Assembly: GCA_015655225.1 (NCBI GenBank)
Contig: JAATFK010000006.1
Location: 1 to 10,680, forward strand
Direction: 5' to 3'
DNA from: Solirubrobacterales bacterium
GTDB taxonomy: Bacteria; Actinomycetota; Thermoleophilia; Solirubrobacterales; Solirubrobacteraceae
Length of the DNA stretch: 10,680 bases
The translations under genes were made by a program, and so were the position numbers. Below, piece by piece: positions 1 to 10,680 of the stretch. How positions within the stretch are numbered: the stretch's first letter is position 1; every line of letters starts with the position of its first letter. The notes below the pieces were generated by a model. The model made no database searches and had not been told where the DNA came from. It saw nothing but the letters and a program-made list of their open reading frames with translations.

Positions 1-849
1 ATCTCCTTCGGCGCCGGCCTCAACCACTGGACGACGCAGCACGGCTCGCTCGTCGGCGCCGACGCGACGGTCATCCAGATCGACCTCGAAGCGGAGGCGA
101 TCGGCGCCCACCGGCCGGTCGACCTCGGCGTCGTCGGCGACGCGAAGGCGGCCGCCGAGGCGCTCACGGAGGAGCTGCGCGAGCGCTGGGCCTCGAACGG
201 CTGGCGCACGCCGGAGACGGCGCGGCGGATCGCCGCCGGCCGCTGGCGCGACGAGCGCTACGAGGACGAGGGCACCGACCACTACGTCGACCCGCGCACG
301 CTCTCGATCGCGCTCAACGAGCTGCTGCCGACCGAGCGGACGGTCGCCGTCGACTCCGGCCACTTCCTCGGCTACGCGGCGATGTACCTCGACGTGACCG
401 ACCCGCTCGCGTGGGTCTTCCCGAACGCGTTCCAGGCGGTCGGGCTGGGGCTCGGCTGCGCGATCGGCGCCGCCGTCGCGCACCCCGAGCGCGTGACGGT
501 CGCGGCGCTCGGCGACGGCGGCACGTTCCTCGCGCTCGCGGAGCTGGAGACGGCCGCGCGGCTCGGCCTGCGGCTCGTCGTCGTGATCTACGACGACGCC
601 GCCTACGGCGCCGAGGTCCACCACTTCCGCGCGCTCGGCCAGGAGGTCGCGCTCGCGCAGTTCCCCGACGCGGACCTCGCGGGGATCGCGCGCGCCGCCG
701 GCGCCGAGGCGATCACGGTCCGCTCGGCCGCCGACCTCGCGCCCGTCTCCGCCTGGGTCGAGTCCGGCTCCGGCCCGCTCGTGATCGACGCCAAGGTGCA
801 TCCTGACGTGTGCGCGGAGTGGCTCGAGCACGCGTTCCGCGCCGGCTGA
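1..849 (+). CDS. Thiamine-diphosphate-binding enzyme (acetolactate synthase/benzoylformate decarboxylase superfamily), 3' part
   Basis: The frame is open from the first base, so the N-terminal Pyr domain and the start lie upstream; 282 residues are visible. Residues about 1-60 look like the end of the central domain, ending in a typical IDLEAEAIG...VDLGVVGDA stretch. Residues about 100-282 form the C-terminal ThDP-binding domain. The cofactor motif is clear: GDG at 171-173, 24 residues, then Asp198-Asp199, followed by AAYGAEVHHF. Asp172 and Asp199 are placed to bind the magnesium that holds the diphosphate. The usual Asn-Asn ending is Asp-Asp here. Family members decarboxylate or ligate 2-oxo acids; the substrate cannot be read from this part. 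The cyclase gene follows after 37 bases in the same direction, so they probably share a transcript. The family is near certain, the exact enzyme unknown. Confidence 0.88.
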   Translation: MSFGAGLNHWTTQHGSLVGADATVIQIDLEAEAIGAHRPVDLGVVGDAKAAAEALTEELRERWASNGWRTPETARRIAAGRWRDERYEDEGTDHYVDPRTLSIALNELLPTERTVAVDSGHFLGYAAMYLDVTDPLAWVFPNAFQAVGLGLGCAIGAAVAHPERVTVAALGDGGTFLALAELETAARLGLRLVVVIYDDAAYGAEVHHFRALGQEVALAQFPDADLAGIARAAGAEAITVRSAADLAPVSAWVESGSGPLVIDAKVHPDVCAEWLEHAFRAG

Positions 850-886: not shown

Positions 887-1666
887 ATGAGCGCCAGCAC
901 CGTCACCGACCTGATCAGCGGGCTGAGCGACGGCTCGGTCGAGCTGGTCGACCTCACGCAGCCGCTCAGCGAGAGCACCCCCGTGCTGATCCTGCCGGAG
1001 CCGTTCGCGAACACGCCGCACCTCTCGCGCCGGCAGCTGAGCAGATACGACGAGGACGGCCCCGCCTGGGCGTGGGACGTCCTCGAGCTGGGCGAGCACA
1101 CCGGCACGCACTTCGATGCGCCGCGCCACTGGATCACCGCCAGAGACGGCGAGGACGTCGCCTCCGTGCCGCCCAAGCGGCTCGTCGGCCCGGCGGTCGT
1201 GATCGACAAGACGGCCGAGGTCGAGGCCGACAACGGCTACCTGCTGACGGTCGCCGACCTGGAGGCCTACGAGGCCGAGCACGGCGCGCTCGCGCCCGGC
1301 TCGTGGGTCCTGCTGCGCAGCGGCTGGGGCTCGCGCGCGCAGGACGAGGCGGCGTTCCTCAACGTCGGCCCCGAGGGACCGGTCACGCCCGGCCCCGACG
1401 TGGCCGCGGCCCGCTGGCTCGCCGAGCATCCGAACGTCGTCGGCTTCGGCACCTAGACGGTCGGCATCGACGCGGGCGCCGCGGGCGGCTTCGACCCCGG
1501 ATTCCCGGTCCACAACTTTCTGCTCGGCGCCGGGCGCTACGGCCTCACGCAGCTTGCGAACCTCGACGCGCTCCCGGTCGCGGGCGCGCTGATCGTCGTC
1601 GCTCCGCTCAAGCTCGTGGACGGCACCGGCAGCCCGTCCCGCGTGCTCGCGTTCGTGCAGCGCTAG
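887..1666 (+). pseudogene. Cyclase-family (kynurenine formamidase-like) metal-dependent hydrolase interrupted by an in-frame amber codon
   Basis: The product belongs to the cyclase/kynurenine formamidase family, metal-dependent amidases or hydrolases. The signature HxGTHxDxPxH is intact as His71-Thr-Gly-Thr-His75-Phe-Asp77-Ala-Pro-Arg-His81 and should hold the metal. Translation from ATG 887 stops at TAG 1454-1456 (codon 190), just after VVGFGT. The same frame then continues without another stop to TAG 1664-1666 and encodes TVGIDAGAAGGFDPG...NFLLGAGRYGLTQLANLD...LKLVDGTGSPSRV, which is the normal C-terminal part of the family. Third positions stay G/C-rich beyond the amber. Family members have an acidic residue at the interrupted position (GxD/E-T-x-x-x-D), so GAG to TAG, a one-base change, is the simplest explanation. 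The full frame is 260 codons, a normal length. It could be a recent pseudogene, a sequencing error or readthrough. The nearby anthranilate-type operon makes a kynurenine link attractive but unproven. Confidence 0.85.
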
Positions 1667-2424
1667 CGGCGCGACTCGGACGCGTCGCGGTCCGGCGGCG
1701 CGAACCCGAGCAGCTCCTCGACCGCCGGCAGGGCGAGCGGCGCGGCCGACTCGCCGTCGCCGGCGGCGGCGCCGTCCGCGAGCGCGGCCGCCGACAGCTC
1801 GGCCGCGCTGCGCAGGTGCGCGGCCAGCAGCGTCACGGCCCCGACGCGGTCGCGCCGCTCCAGCGCCGCGAGCAGCGCGCCGTGCTCGGCCGCGCGCGTG
1901 CGGGCGTGCTCGGGGTGGCGCATCAGCCCGACGCGGTAGCGCTCGCTGGAGCGCCAGACCGGCTCGATCGAGCGCAGCAGCCAGCTCGACCCGGACGCCG
2001 AGTACAACGCGAAGTGGAAGCGCTCGTGCGCGTCGCGGGAGCCGAGCAGGTCGTGGCGCTCGTCGGCGGTCTCCTGCTCCTCCAGCGCCGCCCGCGCCCG
2101 CGCCGCGTCCTCGCGGTCGAAGCGCTCCGCCGCGGTCGCGAGTGCGAGCCCTTCGAGGTGCATCCGCGTGAAGTACGTGTCGACCAGGTCCTCCCGCGTG
2201 AGTGGCCGGACCCACGCGCCCTTGTTCGCGACGACGTCGACGAGGCCCAGGTCCCCGAGGCGTCGCAGCGCCTCGCGGATCGGCATCTTGCTGATCTCCA
2301 GCTGGTCCGACAGCTCCTGCAGCCTCAGGGGCGCCCCGGGTGCGATCGCGCCCTCCATGATCCCCCGGAAGAGCGCGAGCTCCGCCAAGTCGACGGCGGT
2401 CTTCCGGCGGGGCGAGTTCAGCAT
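1663..2424 (-). CDS. GntR-family transcriptional regulator with FCD ligand-binding domain
   Basis: This 253-residue protein has an N-terminal winged helix-turn-helix (about residues 12-75, with LQELSDQLEISKMPIREALRRL as the helical core) and a C-terminal all-helical FCD domain (about 80-215). Such FadR/VanR-type proteins bind operator DNA and release it on binding an acid or acyl-CoA. Metal-site histidines are visible at His137 (RFHFALYSASG), His181 (AAEHGALL) and His203 (AAHLRSA). The position four before His137, normally Asp or Asn, is His133. A low-complexity Ala-rich tail (about 208-235) follows. It is the last gene of the minus operon, 31 bases after the fusion gene, with no good Shine-Dalgarno site. 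The ATG at 2424 was chosen because nothing upstream in frame is a common start. It probably controls the catabolic operon and the divergent thiolase gene; that role is inferred from position. Confidence 0.9.
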   Translation of the reverse strand: MLNSPRRKTAVDLAELALFRGIMEGAIAPGAPLRLQELSDQLEISKMPIREALRRLGDLGLVDVVANKGAWVRPLTREDLVDTYFTRMHLEGLALATAAERFDREDAARARAALEEQETADERHDLLGSRDAHERFHFALYSASGSSWLLRSIEPVWRSSERYRVGLMRHPEHARTRAAEHGALLAALERRDRVGAVTLLAAHLRSAAELSAAALADGAAAGDGESAAPLALPAVEELLGFAPPDRDASESRR

Positions 2425-2455
2425 CGTCAGGACCGGATCGTGGGGCTCGGGTCGC

Positions 2456-4828
2456 TCAGCGCGCGACGCGGGGCGTGGAGGACGGCCGCCAGCGGTCGTG
2501 CTGGGGGCCCGGCTCGACCTCGTCGAACGTGCGCGGCGGCGGCTTGACGGCGTCGAGCGTCCCGTCGTTCGGCTTGCGACGGCCGGCGCGGTACTGGACC
2601 ACCCACGGGTCGCCGCGGTAGTCCTGCTCGGCGGCCGCGTGCAACGTCCAGAACGGGTCGTAGAGGTGCGGGCGCCCGAGCGCGCAGAGGTCCGCGCGGC
2701 CGGCGAGGATCGTCGTGTTGACGTCCTCGTGGCTGCTGAGCGCGCCGACGGCGATCGTCGGCAGGCCGGTCTCGTTCCGGATCCGGTCGGCGAACGGCGT
2801 CTGGTAGCTGCGGCCGAACGCCGGCTGCTGGTCGGGGGAGACCTGGCCGGTCGAGACGTCGACGATGTCGGCGCCGTGGTCGCGCAGCATCCCCGCGACC
2901 GCGACCGCGTCGTCGCCGTCGAAGCCGCCGGGAACCCAGTCGGTCGCCGAGATGCGCACCGAGATCGGCTTGCCCTCGGGCCAGACGGCGCGGCAGGCGT
3001 CGAAGACCTCGAGCGGGAAGCGCGCCCGGTCGTGCAGGTCGCCGCCGTACTCGTCGGTGCGGATGTTCGTGATCGGCGAGAGGAACGAGGAGAGCAGGTA
3101 GCCGTGCGCCATGTGGATCTCGAGCAGGTCGAAGCCGGCGGCGTCGGCGCGCTTGGTCGCCTCGACGAACTGGTCGCGCACCATGTCCATGTCCTCGCGC
3201 GTCATCTCGCGCGGCACCTGGCTGTCGGAGAAGTACGGCAGCGGCGAGGCCGACAGCAGCGGCCAGGCGCCCTCCTCCAGCGGCCGGTCGATCCCGTCCC
3301 ACATCAGCTTCGTCGCGCCCTTGCGGCCGCTGTGGCCGATCTGGGCGCCGATCGCCGCGCGGCTGTGCTCGTGCACGAAGTCGACGATCCGGCGCCAGCC
3401 GGCGACCTGGTCCTCGCGGTAGAGGCCGCCGCAGCCGGGCGTGATGCGCCCCTCGGCGGAGACGCAGATCATCTCCGTCATCACGAGCCCGGCGCCTCCC
3501 ATCGCGCGCGTCCCGAGGTGCACGAGGTGGAAGTCGCCGACCGACCCGTCGACCGCCGTGTACATGTCCATCGGCGAGACGACGACGCGGTTGACCAGCT
3601 CCAGCTCGCGCAGCCGCAGCGGGAAGAACATCGGCGGGCGCACGGCCGCCTGCTCGTCCTGGAGCGTCCGCACGGCGAAGTCGCGGTCGACGCGGTCCAT
3701 GAACAGCTCGTCGCGCAGCCGCAGGTTCTCGTAGGTGATGCGGCGGCTGCGGGTGAGGAGGTTGAAGGCGAACTCGTCCGGTCCCTGCCCGACGTAGCGC
3801 GAGATCTCCTCGAACCACTCGAGGCTCGCCTGCGCGGCGCGCTGGGTGCTCTCGACGACCGGGCGGCGCTCCTCCTCGTAGGCCTGCAGCACGGCGCCGA
3901 CGTCCTCGCGCCCGCGGCGCTCCTTGAACGCCCAGGCGAGCGCGATCGCGTCCTCCATCGCCAGCTTCGTCCCCGAGCCGATCGAGAAGTGGGCGGTGTG
4001 GGCGGCGTCGCCGATCAGCACGATGTTGCCGTCGTGCCAGTGCCCGTTGTGGACCGTCTGGAAGTTGAGCCACTTCGAGTTGTTCGCGACCAGCTGGTGG
4101 CCGTCGAGGATGTCCGCGAACAGCGTGCGGCAGAACGCGATGCTGTCCTCGTCGCTCTCGCCCGGCGTGAGCGACAGCGACTCGCTCGCGTCGAGGCCGG
4201 CGCGCCGCCAGGTCGCCTCGTCGGTCTCGACCACGAACGTGCTCATCGTGTCGTCGTACGGGTAGCCGTGGATCTGGAAGACGCCGAACTCCGACTCGAC
4301 GATGTGGAAGGTGAACGCCTCGAAGACGAGGTCGGTCCCGAGCCACATGAACTTGCTGTGCCGTCTGTCGATCCGCGGCATGAAGGCCTCGGCGCGCTGG
4401 CTGCGGATCTGGCTGTTGATGCCGTCGGCCGCGATCACGAGGTCGTACGTCGCCGACAGCTGGTCGAGCGGGGGCGCCTCGGCCAGGAACGACAGCTCGA
4501 CGCCGAGGTCGAGCGCGCGGTCCTGGAGGATCGTGAGGAGCCGCTGGCGGCTGAGCGCCGAGAAGCCGTGGCCGCCCGAGCTGCGCAGCGTGCCGCGGTA
4601 GTGGATGTCGATGTCGGCCCAGCGCGCGAAGCTGCGCTCGATCTCCTCGTAGGTGACGGGGTCCGCCGCCTGGAACGTGTTCAGCGTCTCGTCGGAGAAG
4701 ACGACCCCGAAGCCGAACGTGTCGTCGGGGGCGTTGCGCTCCCAGACCGACACGTCGTGGCCGAGCCGTCGGAGCAGGATGGCGGAGTAGAGGCCGCCGG
4801 GCCCGCCCCCTGCGATCGCGATCCTCAT
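2456..4828 (-). CDS. Bifunctional aryl-CoA flavin monooxygenase/Old Yellow Enzyme-type reductase (salicylyl-CoA 5-hydroxylase/2-aminobenzoyl-CoA monooxygenase-reductase type)
   Basis: A 790-residue two-domain flavoprotein. Residues 1 to about 380 are an FAD-dependent aromatic hydroxylase: the dinucleotide motif GGGPGG is at 7-12 and the second FAD motif GDAAHTAHFSIGSGTKLAMED starts at Gly273-Asp274. Residues about 395-760 are an Old Yellow Enzyme barrel of the YqjM class. Lys503 (HSGRK), His572 and His575 (HMAHGYL), Tyr577 and Tyr423 match YqjM Lys109, His164, His167, Tyr169 and Tyr28. The position of the YqjM flavin-site Cys26 is Asp421. This fusion is the architecture of Azoarcus evansii 2-aminobenzoyl-CoA monooxygenase/reductase, which hydroxylates C5 of the aminobenzoyl-CoA ring and then reduces it. 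Stand-alone salicylyl-CoA 5-hydroxylase (SdgC) lacks the second domain. The ATG at 4828 begins the Rossmann strand MRIAIAG, has AAGGAG five bases before it, and overlaps the upstream gene's stop as ATGA. Substrate (anthranilyl-, salicylyl- or another aryl-CoA) is inferred. Confidence 0.88.
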   Translation of the reverse strand: MRIAIAGGGPGGLYSAILLRRLGHDVSVWERNAPDDTFGFGVVFSDETLNTFQAADPVTYEEIERSFARWADIDIHYRGTLRSSGGHGFSALSRQRLLTILQDRALDLGVELSFLAEAPPLDQLSATYDLVIAADGINSQIRSQRAEAFMPRIDRRHSKFMWLGTDLVFEAFTFHIVESEFGVFQIHGYPYDDTMSTFVVETDEATWRRAGLDASESLSLTPGESDEDSIAFCRTLFADILDGHQLVANNSKWLNFQTVHNGHWHDGNIVLIGDAAHTAHFSIGSGTKLAMEDAIALAWAFKERRGREDVGAVLQAYEEERRPVVESTQRAAQASLEWFEEISRYVGQGPDEFAFNLLTRSRRITYENLRLRDELFMDRVDRDFAVRTLQDEQAAVRPPMFFPLRLRELELVNRVVVSPMDMYTAVDGSVGDFHLVHLGTRAMGGAGLVMTEMICVSAEGRITPGCGGLYREDQVAGWRRIVDFVHEHSRAAIGAQIGHSGRKGATKLMWDGIDRPLEEGAWPLLSASPLPYFSDSQVPREMTREDMDMVRDQFVEATKRADAAGFDLLEIHMAHGYLLSSFLSPITNIRTDEYGGDLHDRARFPLEVFDACRAVWPEGKPISVRISATDWVPGGFDGDDAVAVAGMLRDHGADIVDVSTGQVSPDQQPAFGRSYQTPFADRIRNETGLPTIAVGALSSHEDVNTTILAGRADLCALGRPHLYDPFWTLHAAAEQDYRGDPWVVQYRAGRRKPNDGTLDAVKPPPRTFDEVEPGPQHDRWRPSSTPRVAR

Positions 4829-5997
4829 GCGTGCTCCTTCCGTGGTGGCGCGAACAGGGCGCGCGCGATGATCTCGCGCTGGATCTCGGATGCGCCTTCG
4901 TAGATCCGGGGCGCGCGCACCTCGCGGTAGAGGTGCTCGAGCAGGTGGCCGCGCTGCAACGCGACGGCTCCGTGGAACTGGATCGAGGCGTCGACCGCCT
5001 CCTGGGCGACCTCGGTCGCCATCAGCTTCGCCATCGCGGCGGCCTGCGTCGTCGGCCGGATGCCGCGGTCGTACGCGGTCGCGGCGGCGTGGACGAGCAG
5101 GCGCGCCCCCTGGACGCGGGTGGCGATGTCGGCCATCCGGTGCGAGACGGCCTGGAAGTCCTTGAGTGGCTTGCCGAACGCGACGCGCTCGTTCGCGTAG
5201 GCGACGGTCGCGTCGATCGCCGCCTGCGCCATGCCGATCGCGAATGCGCCGACGCTCGGGCGGAACATGTCGAGCGTTCTCATCGCGACGCGGAAGCCGC
5301 CGTCGACCTCGCCGAGGCGGTGCTCGCGCGGCACGTGGACGTTGTCGAAGACGAGCCGGCCGACGGGGTGGGGGGAGAGCAGCTCGATGTGCTCGCCGCT
5401 CAGCCCCTCGCTGTCGCCGGGGACGAGGAACGCGGTCAGGCCGCGCGCGCCGCTGCCGGCGCTCGTGCGGGCGAAGACGGCGTAGACGTCGGCCTCCGGC
5501 GCGTTCGAGATCCACGTCTTCTCGCCCGTCAGGCGGTAGCCGTCGCCGTCGGGCTCGGCCGCGAGGGCGAGCGCCGCGACGTCGCTGCCGGCCTGCGGCT
5601 CGCTCAGCGCGAAGCCGGCGACGGCCTCGCCCGCGGCGATCCGCGGCAGCCACGCGTCGACCACCTCGGGGCCGCCCGCCTGCAGCAGCGGGAAGGTCCC
5701 CAGGCCCTGGAGCGCGAACGCGGTCTCGGCCTCGGTGCAGCCGTACGCGAGGCCCTCGCGGATCAGGCAGAGGTCGAGCGCCGAGACGTCGGATCTCCAG
5801 CTGCCGTTCTCCCGTGGGAAGAGGCGACCGAGCAGGCCGTGCTCGGCCAGCAACTTGAGCAGGGGCCGGTTGACGGCGCCCTCGGCGCCGGCCGCCGCGA
5901 CCGGCGCGAGCGTCGTGCGCGCCAGCTCCGCGGTGGAGGCCAGCAGCTCGCGCTGCTCGTCGGAGAGATGCGCGTCGAGGGCGCTGGCGCCGCTCAC
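4825..5997 (-). CDS. Acyl-CoA dehydrogenase
   Basis: This 390-residue FAD enzyme would desaturate an acyl-CoA at C2-C3 and pass electrons to electron-transfer flavoprotein. The helical N-terminal domain is followed by the FAD/substrate motif FALSEPQAGSD, KTWISNA in the beta domain, and a C-terminal helical domain with RVAFGKPLKDFQ and IYEGASEIQREI. The catalytic base is Glu367 in that YEG motif, as in short- and medium-chain dehydrogenases. The start is taken as GTG 5997 rather than the in-frame ATG at 6030: the GTG has GGAGGA nine bases upstream, makes a 4-base GTGA overlap with the Rid gene stop, and removes eleven non-family residues. It overlaps the fusion gene by ATGA at its 3' end. It likely acts on a ring-derived or ring-opened acyl-CoA. 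It is only distantly similar to the second dehydrogenase in the operon, so the two probably handle different intermediates. Confidence 0.9.
   Translation of the reverse strand: MSGASALDAHLSDEQRELLASTAELARTTLAPVAAAGAEGAVNRPLLKLLAEHGLLGRLFPRENGSWRSDVSALDLCLIREGLAYGCTEAETAFALQGLGTFPLLQAGGPEVVDAWLPRIAAGEAVAGFALSEPQAGSDVAALALAAEPDGDGYRLTGEKTWISNAPEADVYAVFARTSAGSGARGLTAFLVPGDSEGLSGEHIELLSPHPVGRLVFDNVHVPREHRLGEVDGGFRVAMRTLDMFRPSVGAFAIGMAQAAIDATVAYANERVAFGKPLKDFQAVSHRMADIATRVQGARLLVHAAATAYDRGIRPTTQAAAMAKLMATEVAQEAVDASIQFHGAVALQRGHLLEHLYREVRAPRIYEGASEIQREIIARALFAPPRKEHA
4834..4839 (-). promoter_or_regulatory. Ribosome binding site of the monooxygenase/reductase gene
   Basis: AAGGAG on the minus strand, five bases before ATG 4828, inside the end of the acyl-CoA dehydrogenase gene. 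It separates the true start from the much longer open frame that extends upstream to 5653. Confidence 0.75.
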
Positions 5998-6407
5998 GGC
6001 AGGCGCTCCTCCGGGAGGACGGCGACGCACATCAGCTCGATCAGCGCCGGCTCGTCGAACAGCCGCGTCACGCCGAACAGGCCGCTCGCCGGGTAGTGGC
6101 GGCCGAAGTGTCTCTGCCAGACGCGGCCCAGCTCCCGCAGGTTGTTGCGATAGTCGGCCGGGTCGGTCACGAAGATCTGGATCGAGACGATGTCCTCGGG
6201 GACGCCGCCGGCGGCCGCGAGCGCTCTGACGACGTTCGCGGCGACCACGTCGAGCTGCTCGACGAGCGTGGTGCCGTGGATCTCCCCGTCGGGGCCGAGC
6301 GCGGTCTGGCCGCCGAGGTGGACGAGCCGCCCGGGGGCGGCGACGACGGCGTGGGCGTAGCCGACCGGCTCACCCAGCTCGGGGGCGACGACGATGCGAT
6401 GGCTCAT
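5994..6407 (-). CDS. Rid-family (YjgF/YER057c/UK114) protein lacking the canonical arginine
   Basis: A 137-residue protein with the whole chorismate-mutase-like Rid fold: LVHLGGQTALGPDGEI near residues 28-43, the TLVEQLDVVAANVVRAL helix, the VSIQIFVTD strand, and the C-terminal ALIELMCVAVLP strand. True RidA enzymes hydrolyse reactive enamines and imines to ketones plus ammonia and need an arginine in a P-x-R motif. Here the matching segment is YPASGLFGVTRL, with Ser108 where the arginine is expected. It therefore belongs with the arginine-lacking Rid subfamilies, whose activities are poorly known. Its place next to an aminobenzoyl-CoA-type oxygenase suggests work on an amino or imino ring intermediate, or on its ring-opened product. 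It starts two bases after the crotonase stop and has GGGAGGG nine bases before the ATG. Confidence 0.88.
   Translation of the reverse strand: MSHRIVVAPELGEPVGYAHAVVAAPGRLVHLGGQTALGPDGEIHGTTLVEQLDVVAANVVRALAAAGGVPEDIVSIQIFVTDPADYRNNLRELGRVWQRHFGRHYPASGLFGVTRLFDEPALIELMCVAVLPEERLP
6007..6012 (-). promoter_or_regulatory. Ribosome binding site that fixes the GTG start of the acyl-CoA dehydrogenase
   Basis: GGAGGA on the minus strand, nine bases before GTG 5997. It lies downstream of the alternative ATG at 6030, so the ATG would be translated through it; this favours the GTG. Confidence 0.75.
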
Positions 6408-6409
6408 GG

Positions 6410-7237
6410 TCAGTGGCCCTCCCAGGCCGGCGGGCGCTTCTCGGTCCACGCTCGGTAGAACTCGCGGTGGTCGTGCGTCAGCATCAGCAGCGCCTGCGTC
6501 GAGGCCTCCAGCTCGATCGCGCTCGCGAGGTCCATGTCCAGCTCCCGCGAGATCAGCGTCTTGGTGGTCGCGAACGCGAGCGCCGGCCCGGTCGCGAGGC
6601 GGCGCGCGAGCGTCTCGGCGCGGTCGGTCAGCTCGTCGTCCTCGACCACGTCGGTCGCGAGGCCGATCGCGAGCGCGCGCTCGGCGCTGACCTTGTCGCC
6701 GAGCGTCAGCAGCTCGGTCGCGCGGCCGAGCCCGACGATCCGCGGCAGCAGGTAGGCGGCGCCCATGTCGGCGCCCGAGAGGCCGACGCGCGTGAAGAGG
6801 AAGGCGAAGGAGGCGGAGCGCGCGAGCAGCCGGAAGTCGCTCGCGAGCGCGAGCACCGAGCCGGCGCCGGCGGCGATCCCGTTGACGGCGGCGATCACCG
6901 GCAGCGGGCAGTCGCGGACCGCCTTGATCATCTGGCCGGTCATGCGCGTGAACTCGAGCAGCTCGGCGGCTTCCATTCTCTGCAGCGCGCCGATGATCTC
7001 CTCGACGTCGCCGCCGGAGCAGAAGCCGCGGCCCTGGCCGGTGACGACGACGGCCTTGACGTCGCCGCGCAGCGGCAGCTCCGCGAACAGGTCGCGCAGG
7101 TCGGCGTAGGACTCGAACGTCAGCGGGTTGAGCTTCTCCGGCCGGTTCAGCGTGACGTAGGCGACGCCGTCGTCGATGCGGAAGTCGAAGTGCTGCCACT
7201 CCTGGGTGAACGGGGGTGAGGCGCGAAACGGGGTCAC
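6410..7237 (-). CDS. Enoyl-CoA hydratase/isomerase (crotonase) family protein
   Basis: A 275-residue crotonase. The core shows DGVAYVTLNRPEKLNPL, the first oxyanion-hole segment GRGFCSGGDVEEI, and the second NGIAAGAGSVLALASDFR. Both glutamates of classical enoyl-CoA hydratases are absent: GGCEL is replaced by GAGSVL (Val128), and the FxxPE segment reads FAFLFTRVGL. Instead Asp157 sits in the motif GLSGADMGAAYLLPR, aligning, with one inserted residue, to the catalytic Asp of PaaG-type isomerases. Plain hydration is thus not assured; isomerisation or hydrolytic ring opening of a 2-oxocyclohexane-carboxyl-CoA type substrate (as BadI does in the benzoate pathway) is plausible. The start is GTG 7237, with GGAGG nine bases upstream, overlapping the SDR stop as GTGA. 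The gene ends two bases before the Rid gene. Confidence 0.9.
   Translation of the reverse strand: MTPFRASPPFTQEWQHFDFRIDDGVAYVTLNRPEKLNPLTFESYADLRDLFAELPLRGDVKAVVVTGQGRGFCSGGDVEEIIGALQRMEAAELLEFTRMTGQMIKAVRDCPLPVIAAVNGIAAGAGSVLALASDFRLLARSASFAFLFTRVGLSGADMGAAYLLPRIVGLGRATELLTLGDKVSAERALAIGLATDVVEDDELTDRAETLARRLATGPALAFATTKTLISRELDMDLASAIELEASTQALLMLTHDHREFYRAWTEKRPPAWEGH
6417..6423 (-). promoter_or_regulatory. Ribosome binding site of the Rid-family gene
   Basis: GGGAGGG on the minus strand, nine bases before ATG 6407, inside the end of the crotonase gene. Confidence 0.65.
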
Positions 7238-7989
7238 GTCTGGATTCCTCCACCGTCGAGAACAAGAGCCTGGCCGTTGACCGAGCGCGCCTCGGGCGAG
7301 GCGAGCCACAGCACGGCGGCAGCGACCTCGTCGGCGTCGAGCAGGCGGCCGAGCGGCGCCATCGCCGCGAGCGCGGCCTCGCCCTCGTCGGCGCTGCGGC
7401 CGGTGCGCTCGGCGATCCGGTCGATCGACGCGCGCGTCATGTCGGTGTCGACGAAGGTCGGGCAGACGGCGTTCGCGGTCACGCCCGAGCCGGCCAGCTC
7501 GGCGGCGGTCGCGCGCATCAGGCCGATCGCGGCGTGCTTGGAGGCGGTGTAGGCGGCCGTGTAGGGGACGCCGACGCGGCCCGCCGTCGAGGCGACCGTG
7601 ACGATCGCGCCGGTCTCCCTCGCGCGCATCCCCGCGATCGCCGCGCGCGTGCAGAGGAAGGCGCCGGTCGCGTTGACGCGCAGCTGGCGCTCCCACGATT
7701 CGAGCGTCGTGCGATGCAGCGGCGCGCTCTCGGAGACGCCGGCGTTGTTCACGAGCACGTCGACGCGGTCGAGCGCGCCAAAGACGTCCGCCACCTGCGC
7801 CTCGTCGGCGACGTCGCAGACCGCGGTCCGGACCGCGCCGTCGAGGCCGTCGAGCTCGTCGGCGAGCACGGCGAGGGCGGCCGCGTCGCGGCCAAGGGCG
7901 AGCACGTCGTCGCCGAGTGCCGCGAAGCGCGCGACGACCGCGCGCCCGATGCCCCGGCTGCCGCCGGTGACGACGACCGCTCGGCTCAC
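7234..7989 (-). CDS. Short-chain dehydrogenase/reductase (SDR)
   Basis: A 251-residue classical SDR, probably an NAD(P)-linked alcohol/ketone oxidoreductase. The cofactor motif TGGSRGIG is at residues 8-15, NNAG lies near residue 83, and the catalytic set is Ser134, Tyr147 and Lys151 (TASTAG-type strand, then YTASK). The C-terminal VNGQALVLDGG is typical. In this operon it could oxidise a 3-hydroxyacyl-CoA or reduce a ring ketone; direction and cofactor cannot be told. The GTG at 7989 overlaps the preceding stop as GTGA. No strong Shine-Dalgarno site precedes it, so translation probably depends on coupling to the upstream gene. It ends in a similar 4-base overlap with the crotonase gene. Confidence 0.9.
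   Translation of the reverse strand: MSRAVVVTGGSRGIGRAVVARFAALGDDVLALGRDAAALAVLADELDGLDGAVRTAVCDVADEAQVADVFGALDRVDVLVNNAGVSESAPLHRTTLESWERQLRVNATGAFLCTRAAIAGMRARETGAIVTVASTAGRVGVPYTAAYTASKHAAIGLMRATAAELAGSGVTANAVCPTFVDTDMTRASIDRIAERTGRSADEGEAALAAMAPLGRLLDADEVAAAVLWLASPEARSVNGQALVLDGGGIQT
7247..7251 (-). promoter_or_regulatory. Ribosome binding site that fixes the GTG start of the crotonase gene
   Basis: GGAGG on the minus strand, nine bases before GTG 7237 and inside the end of the SDR gene. The frame is open for 459 bases further upstream, but that part is only the shadow of the SDR gene. Confidence 0.7.
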
Positions 7990-9179
7990 GCCAGCGCCCG
8001 CTCGCCCGTCAGGGCCTCGCCCAGGATCAGGGTGTGCATCTCGGTCGTGCCCTCGTAGGTGAGGACCGACTCGAGGTTGTTCGCGTGACGCATCACGGGG
8101 TACTCGGTCGTGATCCCGTTGGCGCCGAGGATCGTGCGCGCCTCGCGGGCGATCTCCAGCGCGGCGCGGACGTTGTTGAGCTTGCCGATGCTGACCTGCG
8201 TCGGGTGGAGCGCGCCGGCGTCCTTCAGCGCGCCGAGCCGCCACGCGACGAGCTGCGCCTTCTGCAGCTCCAGCATCATCTCGACGAGCTTGCGCTGCGT
8301 CAGCTGGAAGCCGGCGATCGGCCGTCCCCACTGCACGCGCGTCTTGCTGTACTCGAGCGCCGACTGGTAGCACGCGTTGCCGGCGCCGACGGCGCCCCAG
8401 GCGATCCCGTAGCGGGCCTCGTTGAGGCACGAGAGCGGGCCTCTGATGCCGCGCACGCCGGGGAGGACGGCGGACTCCGGGAGGCGGACGTCCTCCAGGA
8501 TCAGCTCGGAGGTGACCGACGCGCGCAGCGACAGCTTGCGGTGGATGTCGACGGCCGAGAAGCCGGGCGTGTCGGTCGGCACGACGAAGCCGCGGATGCC
8601 GTCGTCGGTCTGCGCCCAGACGACCGCGACCGCCGCCGCGCCGCCGTTCGTGATCCACATCTTCGTCCCGTTGAGGATCCAGTCGCCGCCGTCACGCTTG
8701 GCGCGCGTGCGCATGCTGCCGGGGTCGCTGCCGAAGTCGGGCTCGGTCAGGCCGAAGCAGCCGATCGCCTCGCCGCTGGCCATCCGCGGCAGCCACTCCT
8801 GTCTCTGCTCCTCGCTGCCGAACTTCCAGATCGGGAACATCGCGAGCGAGCCCTGGACGGAGACGAGGCTGCGCAGCCCGCTGTCGCCGAACTCCAGCTC
8901 GCGGCACGCGACGCCGTAGGCGGTCGCGCTCGCGCCGGCGCAGTCGTAGCCGGTCAGGTGCATGCCGAGCAGCCCGAGCTTCCCCAGCTCCGGGGCGATC
9001 TCGCGGGGAAGCGTGCCGGCGTCGAACCACTCGCCGATCTCGGGCAGCACGCGGTCGCCGACGTAGCGGCGGACGGTGTCGCGCACCATCCGCTCCTCGT
9101 CACCGAGGAGGGCGTCGAGGTCGAGGGCGTCGTTGGGCGCGATCGGCCGGGCGGAGGTGGAGGGAGAAGTGGTCGCCAT
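7986..9179 (-). CDS. gcdH: Glutaryl-CoA dehydrogenase-like acyl-CoA dehydrogenase
   Basis: The first gene of the minus operon encodes 397 residues, the usual length of glutaryl-CoA dehydrogenase, which oxidises and decarboxylates glutaryl-CoA to crotonyl-CoA. Similarity runs throughout: GLTEPDFGSDPGSM, LNGTKMWITN, KLSLRASVTSE, NEARYGIAWGAVGAG, ILGANGI, RHANNLESVLTYEGTTEMHTLILGEALTG. Residues that bind the free carboxylate or act in catalysis in human GCDH have counterparts: Glu96 (Glu87), Arg103-Ser104 (Arg94-Ser95), the Thr of GLTEP (Thr170), Tyr375 (Tyr369) and the base Glu376 (Glu370). The true substrate may be glutaryl-CoA or a related dicarboxylyl-CoA from the opened ring. ATG 9179 was chosen over the ATG at 9287 because the 36 extra residues are not family-like and run through the divergent promoter region into the thiolase gene. 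No Shine-Dalgarno site precedes 9179. Confidence 0.88.
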   Translation of the reverse strand: MATTSPSTSARPIAPNDALDLDALLGDEERMVRDTVRRYVGDRVLPEIGEWFDAGTLPREIAPELGKLGLLGMHLTGYDCAGASATAYGVACRELEFGDSGLRSLVSVQGSLAMFPIWKFGSEEQRQEWLPRMASGEAIGCFGLTEPDFGSDPGSMRTRAKRDGGDWILNGTKMWITNGGAAAVAVVWAQTDDGIRGFVVPTDTPGFSAVDIHRKLSLRASVTSELILEDVRLPESAVLPGVRGIRGPLSCLNEARYGIAWGAVGAGNACYQSALEYSKTRVQWGRPIAGFQLTQRKLVEMMLELQKAQLVAWRLGALKDAGALHPTQVSIGKLNNVRAALEIAREARTILGANGITTEYPVMRHANNLESVLTYEGTTEMHTLILGEALTGERALA

Positions 9180-9285
9180 GATCGTGAGTCTACATACCAC
9201 CGTGGTCGCGTGTCGAACTTTCTCGGCAACGCGGTCGGCGGTTGAACGACACGACAGCCCGGTGACCTGTTGTATGTTCCTCGCC
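9180..9285. promoter_or_regulatory. Divergent promoter/operator region between the catabolic operon and the thiolase gene
   Basis: These 106 bases are the only substantial non-coding stretch in the window and are less GC-rich than the genes. Both start codons lack a Shine-Dalgarno site. A -10-like TATGTA on the minus strand (9191-9196) lies 11 bases before ATG 9179, and TATGTT on the plus strand (9273-9278) lies seven bases before ATG 9286. Either would give a leaderless or nearly leaderless mRNA. Symmetry elements include ACCAC-C-GTGGT (9196-9206) and the arms GTGTCG (9210-9215)/CGACAC (9247-9252). No convincing -35 box is seen for either; a weak TTCGAC stands 15 bases from the minus-strand -10. 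Control by the operon's GntR protein is an inference. Confidence 0.6.
9196..9206. repeat. Short inverted repeat, candidate operator
   Basis: ACCAC and GTGGT form perfect 5-base arms around one C. The repeat abuts and overlaps by one base the -10-like TATGTA of the minus operon, a good position for a repressor. With so short a repeat in GC-rich DNA, chance is a real alternative. Confidence 0.35.
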
Positions 9286-10491
9286 ATGCCCGGAGCCTGG
9301 ATCGTCGACGGCGTGCGGACCCCCGTCGGACGCCATCGCGGCGCGCTCGCCGCGGTCCGCCCGGACGACCTCGCGGCGCTCGTCGTGGGCGAGACGGTGC
9401 GCCGCTCGGGGGTCGACCCGGCGACGATCGACGACGTCTACCTCGGCGCCACGAACGGCGTCGGCGAGGACAACCGCAACGTCGCCCGCATGGCCGTGCT
9501 GCTCGCGGGCCTGCCGGACAGCGTGCCGGGCGCGACCGTGAACCGGCTGTGCGGGTCGGGCATGGAGGCCGTCGCGACCGCCGCGCGCGCGATCCGCAGC
9601 GGCGAGGGCGACGTGCTCGTCGCCGGCGGCGTCGAGTCGATGAGCCGCGCGCCGTGGGCGATGCTGAAGCCGGAGCGCTCGCAGCCATGGGGCGACGAGA
9701 CGCTCGCCGACACGACGATCGGCTGGCGCTTCGTCAACCCCGGGATGCCGGAGCGCGCGACCGTCTCGATGGGCGGGACGGCCGAGAACGTCGCCTCGCT
9801 TCACTCCGTCAGCCGGGAGGACCAGGACGCGTTCGCCGTGGAGTCCCACCGCCGCGCGGTCGCCGCGCAGGAGGCGGGTCGCTTCGACGGCCAGCTGGTC
9901 CCGGTCTCCGTTCCCGTGCGCCGGGGCGAGCCGATCGTCGTCGCGGTTGACGAGGGCCCGCGTCCCGACACGGGCCTCGAGGGTCTTGCCCGCCTGCGTC
10001 CCGCGTTCCGCGAGGGCGGCTCCGTCACCGCCGGCAACTCCTCGCCGTTGAACGACGGCGCCGCCGCGCTGCTGGTCGTCAGCGACGACGCTTTGCGTGG
10101 TTTCGCGGGGGAGCCGCTGGCGCGCGTCGTCGCGAGCGCCAGCGTCGGCGTCGATCCCGCGCTGATGGGGATGGGACCGGTGCCCGCGGTCGAGCTGGCG
10201 CTGCGACGGGCCGGCCTGCGGCTCGACCAGATCGGCGTGGTCGAGCTGAACGAGGCGTTCGCCTCCCAGGCGCTCGCGTGCATCCGCGAGCTGGGGCTCG
10301 ACCCCGCGATCGTGAACCCGAACGGCGGCGCGATCGCGCTCGGCCACCCGCTCGGCTCGACCGGTGCCCGCCTGCTGGTCGCGCTCTCGCACGAGCTGCG
10401 CCGGCGCGGCGAGCGCTACGGCGTGGCGACGATGTGCATCGGCGTCGGGCAGGGGATCGCGGTCGTGCTCGAGAACCCCGCCGTCGCGTGA
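9286..10491 (+). CDS. Acetyl-CoA C-acyltransferase (beta-ketoadipyl-CoA thiolase-type)
   Basis: A complete 401-residue thiolase, which cleaves a 3-oxoacyl-CoA with CoA to give acetyl-CoA and a shortened acyl-CoA. The nucleophile Cys89 is in NRLCGSGMEAV, His354 in NPNGGAIALGHPLG, and the second cysteine Cys384 in MCIGVGQG; GGVESMSRAPW and VELNEAFASQ are also present. Length and these motifs are closest to the PcaF/PaaJ group acting on beta-ketoadipyl-CoA, but substrate range cannot be set from motifs. ATG 9286 fits the family N-terminus (MPGAWIVDGVRTPVG); the frame runs further upstream, but only through the promoter region and the antisense of the neighbour. The gene is divergent from the minus operon and overlaps the following dehydrogenase by GTGA. 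It probably provides the last thiolytic step of the pathway. Confidence 0.93.
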   Translation: MPGAWIVDGVRTPVGRHRGALAAVRPDDLAALVVGETVRRSGVDPATIDDVYLGATNGVGEDNRNVARMAVLLAGLPDSVPGATVNRLCGSGMEAVATAARAIRSGEGDVLVAGGVESMSRAPWAMLKPERSQPWGDETLADTTIGWRFVNPGMPERATVSMGGTAENVASLHSVSREDQDAFAVESHRRAVAAQEAGRFDGQLVPVSVPVRRGEPIVVAVDEGPRPDTGLEGLARLRPAFREGGSVTAGNSSPLNDGAAALLVVSDDALRGFAGEPLARVVASASVGVDPALMGMGPVPAVELALRRAGLRLDQIGVVELNEAFASQALACIRELGLDPAIVNPNGGAIALGHPLGSTGARLLVALSHELRRRGERYGVATMCIGVGQGIAVVLENPAVA

Positions 10492-10680
10492 GCGCTTCCG
10501 GCGAGCGGCTCGGGGTCGTCGGCGCCGGAACGATGGGCGGGGGCATCGCCGGCCTCGCCGCGCAGCGCGGGATCGCGACGACGCTCTACGACGTGGCCGA
10601 CGGCCCGCTCGCCGCCGGCCGCGAGCGGATCGAGGGCTCGCTCGCGCGGGCCGTGGCGAGAGGGCGGGTGAGCGAGGAGG
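10488..10680 (+). CDS. 3-hydroxyacyl-CoA dehydrogenase, 5' part
   Basis: The first 64 codons are visible and the gene runs past the window end. GTG 10488 overlaps the thiolase stop as GTGA. The N-terminus contains LGVVGAGTMGGGIAGLAAQRG, the NAD-binding beta-alpha-beta of FadB/PaaH-type dehydrogenases, followed by TTLYDV and an Arg-rich helix typical of the family. It would oxidise a 3-hydroxyacyl-CoA to the 3-oxoacyl-CoA used by the adjoining thiolase. The pair resembles paaH/paaJ or hbd/thiolase modules. Whether a C-terminal domain or fusion follows cannot be seen. Confidence 0.9.
   Translation, partial: MSASGERLGVVGAGTMGGGIAGLAAQRGIATTLYDVADGPLAAGRERIEGSLARAVARGRVSEE

Follow-up and report, generated by a model that had tools for sequence, protein, structure and literature searches.

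Tryptophan, indole and isatin can all be degraded to anthranilate, and isatin in turn occurs as an intermediate when indole and auxin are broken down. The founding gene paper of the 2-aminobenzoyl-CoA (abm) pathway, an aerobic CoA-dependent route of anthranilate catabolism, is said to be that of Schuhle (2001). As described in parts of the literature on Azoarcus evansii and Cupriavidus, this pathway comprises an aryl-CoA ligase, a fusion of an FAD monooxygenase with an Old Yellow Enzyme (OYE), and beta-oxidation-type breakdown (PMC4539516, PMC6221969, PMC8879955, PMC2842291); for Azoarcus, one passage assigns the further degradation to beta-oxidation enzymes (PMC4539516), and the product of the fusion was identified in 1990, as referenced in PMC3534580. 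Here, we describe a contig of 10,680 bases from a Solirubrobacterales bacterium (JAATFK010000006.1, our C394; "the window" hereafter), which is probably the middle of an actinobacterial catabolic locus of this abm type, joined to a branch that feeds in isatin.

The actinobacterial pathway as such is not new, because Arthrobacter sp. Rue61a is reported to use it, and the window cluster is a new variant of this known route. According to passages on that strain, anthranilate is broken down solely via CoA thioesters, two anthranilate-CoA ligases were active after expression, the strain grew on neither salicylate nor gentisate, and a C7H8O4-CoA compound, perhaps cyclohexanedione-carboxyl-CoA, was seen on anthranilate only (PMC3534580). 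The best plasmid match of the window's fusion enzyme (62.3% identity) is encoded on plasmid pAL1 of this strain, where it adjoins an AMP-binding gene, which presumably encodes the anthranilate-CoA ligase whose activity was measured there. The two clusters share the fusion, a Rid-family protein, a CoA ligase, PaaX-type regulators and the handling of anthranilate as a CoA thioester, but in pAL1 fumarylacetoacetate hydrolase (FAH), cupin and thioesterase genes replace the short-chain dehydrogenase/reductase (SDR), the crotonase-family protein (ECH1) and the acyl-CoA dehydrogenases (ACAD1 and ACAD2) of the window, and the pAL1 ligase is of the benzoate type. The Azoarcus and Cupriavidus systems are comparable in the kinds of enzymes, not in gene order, and the window locus differs from them in having a candidate ligase of the phenylacetate-CoA-ligase (PaaK) type and a pair of genes for an isatin hydrolase and a thiamine diphosphate (ThDP)-dependent enzyme.

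An operon on the Sinorhizobium meliloti plasmid pSmeAK21a contains a ligase, the fusion, an SDR, an ECH, two ACADs (the second 51% identical to ACAD2), a Rid protein, a 3-hydroxyacyl-CoA dehydrogenase (HAD) and a 3-oxoadipyl-type thiolase (57% identical to that of the window). It differs in that it lies on a single strand with a MarR regulator and an extra small thioesterase, and its HAD protein is longer and also matches ECH2, a second crotonase encoded outside the window; no isatin gene is listed in this stretch, the gene table of which is incomplete. On the isatin side, a passage on the iad auxin route of Variovorax describes the conversion of isatin via isatinic acid to anthranilic acid, and a figure legend of the same source lists iorAB among the auxin-locus genes (PMC9613470). 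The likeness to the iad loci of Variovorax and Bradyrhizobium lies in this route and in an Azospirillum locus (L088), where the fusion module has as its neighbours genes annotated as indolepyruvate oxidoreductase subunits (IorAB), a Rieske dioxygenase and a ligase. In contrast, neither an iadDE-type dioxygenase nor iorAB is among the genes of the window, to which this comparison was confined, and the ThDP enzyme of the window is a single chain. According to part of its text, a 2022 curation omitted tryptophan degradation via anthraniloyl-CoA monooxygenase/reductase because knowledge was lacking (PMC9007349). The cluster comparison presented here yields a short list of candidate enzymes for the steps after the fusion and predicts two different lower routes, and the gene neighbourhood ties isatin to the anthraniloyl-CoA pathway.

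The fusion protein scored 1181.5 bits against NCBIfam NF006101 ("bifunctional salicylyl-CoA 5-hydroxylase/oxidoreductase"; cut-off 1078) and has both FAD and OYE motifs, which places it in the fused monooxygenase/OYE family of the abm pathway, as an earlier note made from the sequence alone had read it. Its nearest relatives come from metagenome-assembled genomes (MAGs), namely L006 (84%) and L008 (72%), both Solirubrobacterales, and L007 (74%; Actinomycetota), in line with the actinobacterial origin assumed in the earlier note. One genome, G141, has two fusions, one in a complete module that is truncated where the contig stops (L135) and one beside a benzoate-type ligase (L136), and the window fusion is closer to the latter (84%) than to the former (79%). 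When 92 fusions of at least 700 residues were aligned, most flavin and OYE motif positions proved to be conserved: the second His of HxxH and the GD motif were present in all 92 and the first His in 91, and the N-terminal GxGxxG positions were kept in 76–80, a shortfall perhaps explained by wrongly called starts. A split fusion suspected in genus g15, where one TGA was flagged, was set aside, as the gene caller gives a single fusion gene there.

To place the window among its relatives, we examined 99 loci, which were drawn from the best 80 of 82 scan matches, a search across the order, in which 18 of 151 genomes had a fusion, and plasmid records (3 of 2,468 with a match). Three loci with no called fusion over the threshold (L128, L130 and L134) were dropped, leaving 96 that were counted, and L006, L007 and L009 were not used, since they duplicate L136, L120 and L124. 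The flanks were of unequal length, some genes were missed by the simple codon-usage script used for gene calling, and genes were labelled by identity thresholds, under which the annotated ligase of L088 fell. Near-copies are present in the sample, 8 from Thalassospira and about 8 from Dormibacterota, and some genomes contribute two loci. Module A (ECH and ACAD1) was found in 37 loci and module B (FAH and thioesterase) in 36; none had both, and 23 had neither. A cupin accompanied module B in all 36 loci, and the SDR occurred in 26 of the 37 module-A loci but in none of the 36 with module B, whereas Rid was found with both (26/37 and 33/36). HAD was present in 14 module-A loci and a thiolase in 11. 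Module A occurs across Alphaproteobacteria, Solirubrobacterales, Dormibacterota, Kutzneria and two Streptomyces, and module B in Micrococcales, Rhodococcus and one Streptomyces. On a quick tree of 93 fusions, the A branch had an SH-aLRT of 97 and the B branch of 79. With a looser definition of module B than in the locus counts (42 rows vs 36), each module needs only one change on this tree, compared with means of 27 and 29 after shuffling; none of 500 shuffles was as low, a result that is inflated by the near-copies. One change per module is compatible with a single module switch.

Within the window, six minus-strand genes form a tight run in the order ACAD2, SDR, ECH1, Rid, ACAD1 and fusion (Table 1), with 4-bp overlaps at four of the five junctions and a 2-bp gap at the other. 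The GntR/FCD regulator gene comes after this run, and the thiolase gene and the start of the HAD gene face the opposite way. The run from SDR to the fusion occurs in identical order and strand in 11 of the 99 loci, with the window counted in, and in L135 it is again preceded by ACAD2, so that a chance arrangement can be set aside. Profile matches to Pfam and NCBIfam, together with the gene calls, recovered every gene that the earlier note had named, close to where it had put them, and its statement that there is no ring-cleavage dioxygenase holds for the genes of the window. Two genes to the left of position 1663 that it did not list, the ThDP half and the cyclase, probably belong to the same route.

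Table 1. Genes and gene parts in the window (ACAD1 and ACAD2 starts as given by the gene caller).
Feature	Position	Strand	Basis
ThDP-dependent enzyme, C-terminal half; candidate isatinate decarboxylase or oxidase	1..849	+	PF02775; 62% to L008 ThDP residues 285-567
Isatin hydrolase-like cyclase, in-frame TAG at 1454-1456	887..1666	+	PF04199; PDB 5nmp
GntR/FCD transcriptional regulator	1663..2424	-	PF00392 + PF07729
2-Aminobenzoyl-CoA monooxygenase/reductase-type fusion (FAD monooxygenase + Old Yellow Enzyme)	2456..4828	-	PF01494 + PF00724; NF006101
ACAD1, acyl-CoA dehydrogenase	4825..5997	-	Best NCBIfam relative cyclohexane-1-carbonyl-CoA dehydrogenase, 254 bits vs cut-off 650
Rid-family protein without RidA arginine	5994..6407	-	PF01042; alignments
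ECH1, crotonase-family, without hydratase glutamates, invariant Asp	6410..7237	-	NF006107, 414.9 bits vs cut-off 330; PDB 3g64
SDR oxidoreductase, Ser-Tyr-Lys pattern present	7234..7989	-	PF13561; motif
ACAD2, glutaryl-CoA dehydrogenase-like	7986..9179	-	PDB 3sf6/3swo, 562/557 bits
Thiolase, 3-oxoadipyl-CoA thiolase-like	9286..10491	+	TIGR02430, 538.9 bits, below cut-off 597
3-Hydroxyacyl-CoA dehydrogenase (HAD), first ~64 residues	10488..10680	+	Matches residues 3-61 of L007 protein

The host genome (3.9 Mb, 729 contigs, 77% complete) offers candidates for the parts of the locus on either side of the window. Contig C595 encodes a PaaK-type ligase (258 bits; PaaK cut-off 646) that is 63% identical to the ligase near the fusion in L007, as well as a PaaX regulator with 71% identity to that of L008, which adjoins the same module. 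C595 ends within a ThDP gene, the part of which on that contig (L146:5650-6465) corresponds to residues 11–279 of the L008 homologue; the first gene of the window corresponds to residues 285–567, and the ThDP gene would accordingly sit between the ligase and the cyclase. At the other end, C713 begins inside HAD (residues 72–373 of the L007 protein, of which the window supplies 3–61) and continues with ECH2. From these split genes and the synteny, C595 probably abuts the left end of the window, with the ThDP gene divided between them, and HAD probably runs on into C713. In genome G090, which belongs to the same genus and consists of a single contig, locus L121 carries PaaX, a PaaK-type ligase, HAD, thiolase, SDR, ECH, Rid, ACAD1 and the fusion within about 12 kb, and the ligase and the fusion lie about 8 kb apart on one chromosome. 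The type of ligase differs between loci; L136, Thalassospira, Arthrobacter and Dormibacterota have one of the benzoate type. The earlier note found no aryl-CoA ligase in the window and made its reading depend on there being one in the genome, which the candidate on C595 provides; it proposed to look for the gene beyond base 10,680, whereas the candidate probably lies to the left of base 1, and no called gene of C713 matched the ligases of the reference set. The benzoate-CoA-ligase family was also considered, with 29 places in the window genome, none over the cut-off; the best, on C362, was without other matched module genes.

Enoyl-CoA hydratases rely on two catalytic glutamates and RidA on the arginine of Pro-Ala-Arg, and the Arg-Ser of glutaryl-CoA dehydrogenase belongs to the carboxylate pocket. 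In all 40 aligned ECH1 sequences both glutamate positions hold other residues, with an invariant Asp, and none of the 67 aligned Rid proteins (the alignments including one to MMF1) has the arginine at the RidA position; the textbook roles of these families therefore do not transfer. Without its glutamates ECH1 is unlikely to hydrate and may instead shift a double bond or open a ring, whereas ECH2 on C713 has both glutamates and probably performs hydration. The crotonase and Rid genes of the earlier note are thus real, but the loss of nitrogen and the hydration that it ascribed to them do not follow from the family names. All 38 aligned ACAD1 sequences have the YEG-motif Glu. ACAD2 is related by sequence to solved glutaryl-CoA dehydrogenases and has the Arg-Ser aligned with that of PDB 3sf6, although its score against NCBIfam GlutCoADH_Des (207 bits) is below the cut-off of 470. 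BadI and BadH, as possible identities of ECH1 and SDR, were not among the best 25 NCBIfam families listed.

In the route proposed here, isatin would be hydrolysed to isatinate by the isatin hydrolase, which is intact only in relatives, and isatinate would be converted to anthranilate by the ThDP enzyme, perhaps through 2-aminobenzaldehyde. The PaaK-type ligase on C595 is the putative source of anthraniloyl-CoA, which the FAD domain of the fusion would hydroxylate at position 5 before its OYE domain reduces the ring, giving 2-amino-5-oxocyclohex-1-ene-carboxyl-CoA. Family membership and neighbourhood support the scheme as far as anthraniloyl-CoA and dearomatisation, and the later steps are what we infer from the gene set. 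The amino group would be lost with the help of Rid or spontaneously, SDR would reduce the 5-oxo group, ECH1 would open the ring at the beta-keto thioester or shift a double bond, and ACAD1 would desaturate. Ordinary beta-oxidation by ECH2, HAD and the thiolase could then follow, with ACAD2 possibly handling glutaryl-CoA. The lower pathway might lead to either glutaryl-CoA or 2-hydroxyglutarate. Companion genes of this beta-oxidation-like kind, which an abm pathway is expected to include, are present in the window.

The substrate is likely to be anthranilate rather than salicylate, because relatives of the fusion adjoin genes for kynureninase, tryptophan dioxygenase or isatin hydrolase, all of which lead to anthranilate. 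Within 9 kb of the fusion, the 96 loci included kynureninase in 7, tryptophan dioxygenase in 10 and an isatin hydrolase homologue in 18; the module-A loci account for 7 and 9 of the first two. In Thalassospira (L068 and near-copies), the order is fusion-SDR-MarR-ECH-ACAD1-ligase-kynureninase-tryptophan 2,3-dioxygenase. The salicylate/gentisyl-CoA (Sdg) route is defined by a gentisate dioxygenase accompanying the hydroxylase. If the window encoded such a route, as the NCBIfam name of NF006101 would have it and as the earlier note had allowed, the fusion would be a salicylyl-CoA 5-hydroxylase, and gentisate dioxygenase would open the ring once the product, gentisyl-CoA, had been hydrolysed. However, none of six genomes, including the 77%-complete genome of the window, had a gentisate dioxygenase over the cut-off of 442 bits; the best match in the window genome was a 30-bit fragment, with none among the window genes, and G090 has a relative with 378 bits. 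A beta-oxidation-type gene set would also be unexpected for gentisyl-CoA, and neither salicylate nor gentisate supported growth of Rue61a, the fusion of which is 62% identical (PMC3534580). We consider the salicylate route very unlikely, and the comparison suggests that the family name misleads for many of the members examined. Of the earlier interpretation, the fusion, anthranilate and a course free of ring-cleavage dioxygenase remain; salicylate lacks support, the ligase is probably on the other side, and the roles of Rid and crotonase are to be qualified.

The isatin branch is less secure, because an in-frame TAG interrupts the cyclase, the homologous frame of which runs on to about 1666. 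The part before the stop matches the isatin hydrolase of PDB 5nmp (3.2e-52), the homologue in L008 matches isatin hydrolase 4j0n (1.2e-70), and the frame is open in L008 and L125. The stop may be an assembly error or mark a pseudogene, and the branch may accordingly be dead in this genome or merely appear so through a MAG error. Recoding of TAG was rejected as its cause, since the GntR gene of the window itself terminates with TAG. One internal TAG also interrupts other matched frames of the window's own assembly (G000), on contigs C544, C515 and C578, perhaps through assembly or read errors. The stop, together with the lack of an isatin hydrolase within 9 kb in 34 of the 37 module-A loci, would suit a reading in which the left-hand ThDP and cyclase genes are unrelated neighbours and anthranilate comes from tryptophan, indole or quinoline. 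This is unlikely, considering that an isatin hydrolase homologue lies directly beside the fusion in 12 of the 96 loci, in several lineages, whereas about 1 in 96 would be expected by chance from the three PF04199 places in the 3.9 Mb of the window genome (one genome, and the loci are not independent), and that the ThDP gene is itself placed between ligase and cyclase. The TAG and the other single-stop frames of the assembly could likewise be remnants of a decaying or silent cluster with a non-functional route, but the remaining genes of the window are open, the motifs examined are kept, the overlaps are tight, and the module is open in relatives with the same order, which makes decay quite improbable. 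The interpretation as an anthranilate locus with an isatin branch thus stands, although several points weigh against it besides the stop, the loci without isatin hydrolase and, somewhat, the dioxygenase relative in G090. ACAD2 is nearby in only 4 of the 37 module-A loci; the hydratase glutamates are missing from ECH1 and the RidA arginine from Rid; the best PDB relatives of the C595 ligase, 4r1l among them, are phenylacetate-CoA ligases, and the nearest fusion relative, L136, adjoins a benzoate-type one; C595 and the window share no overlap of at least 4 bases, and C713 and the window just 4 bases; and no kynureninase was found in a search of the 77%-complete genome.

A third type of locus, Nanopelagicales-like, carries IorAB-type genes (n = 8: L042, L044, L046, L048, L050, L058, L060 and L081). 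Isatin hydrolase was found in seven of these; the L060 stretch stops soon after the fusion, and an isatin hydrolase there would be outside the view. In the eight stretches, no match to six ligases was found at 1e-10, in a search that recovered the ligases of L008, L088 and L136. These loci may represent a direct route from isatinate to anthraniloyl-CoA, although IorAB and a ligase occur together in L088 and the eight loci are close kin, both of which count against a ligase-free route. More broadly, we tentatively suggest, while regarding it as rather doubtful, that one conserved dearomatising fusion is followed by either of two interchangeable lower routes, SDR/ECH1/ACAD1 or FAH/cupin/thioesterase, which are not homologous and have only Rid in common. 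In such a scheme, ECH1 would be a ring-opening or isomerising enzyme, Rid would act on a CoA-bound enamine, and isatinate would enter via ThDP enzymes or, in the Nanopelagicales type, via an IorAB-like enzyme that yields anthraniloyl-CoA without a ligase. No ThDP-dependent isatinate enzyme was found in print among open-licence papers. In Dormibacterota-type loci (L010, L011, L014, L015, L034, L065, L083–L085 and L134), a creatininase-family hydrolase is encoded between or beside the ligase and the fusion, and possibly provides an amide-opening step ahead of anthranilate.

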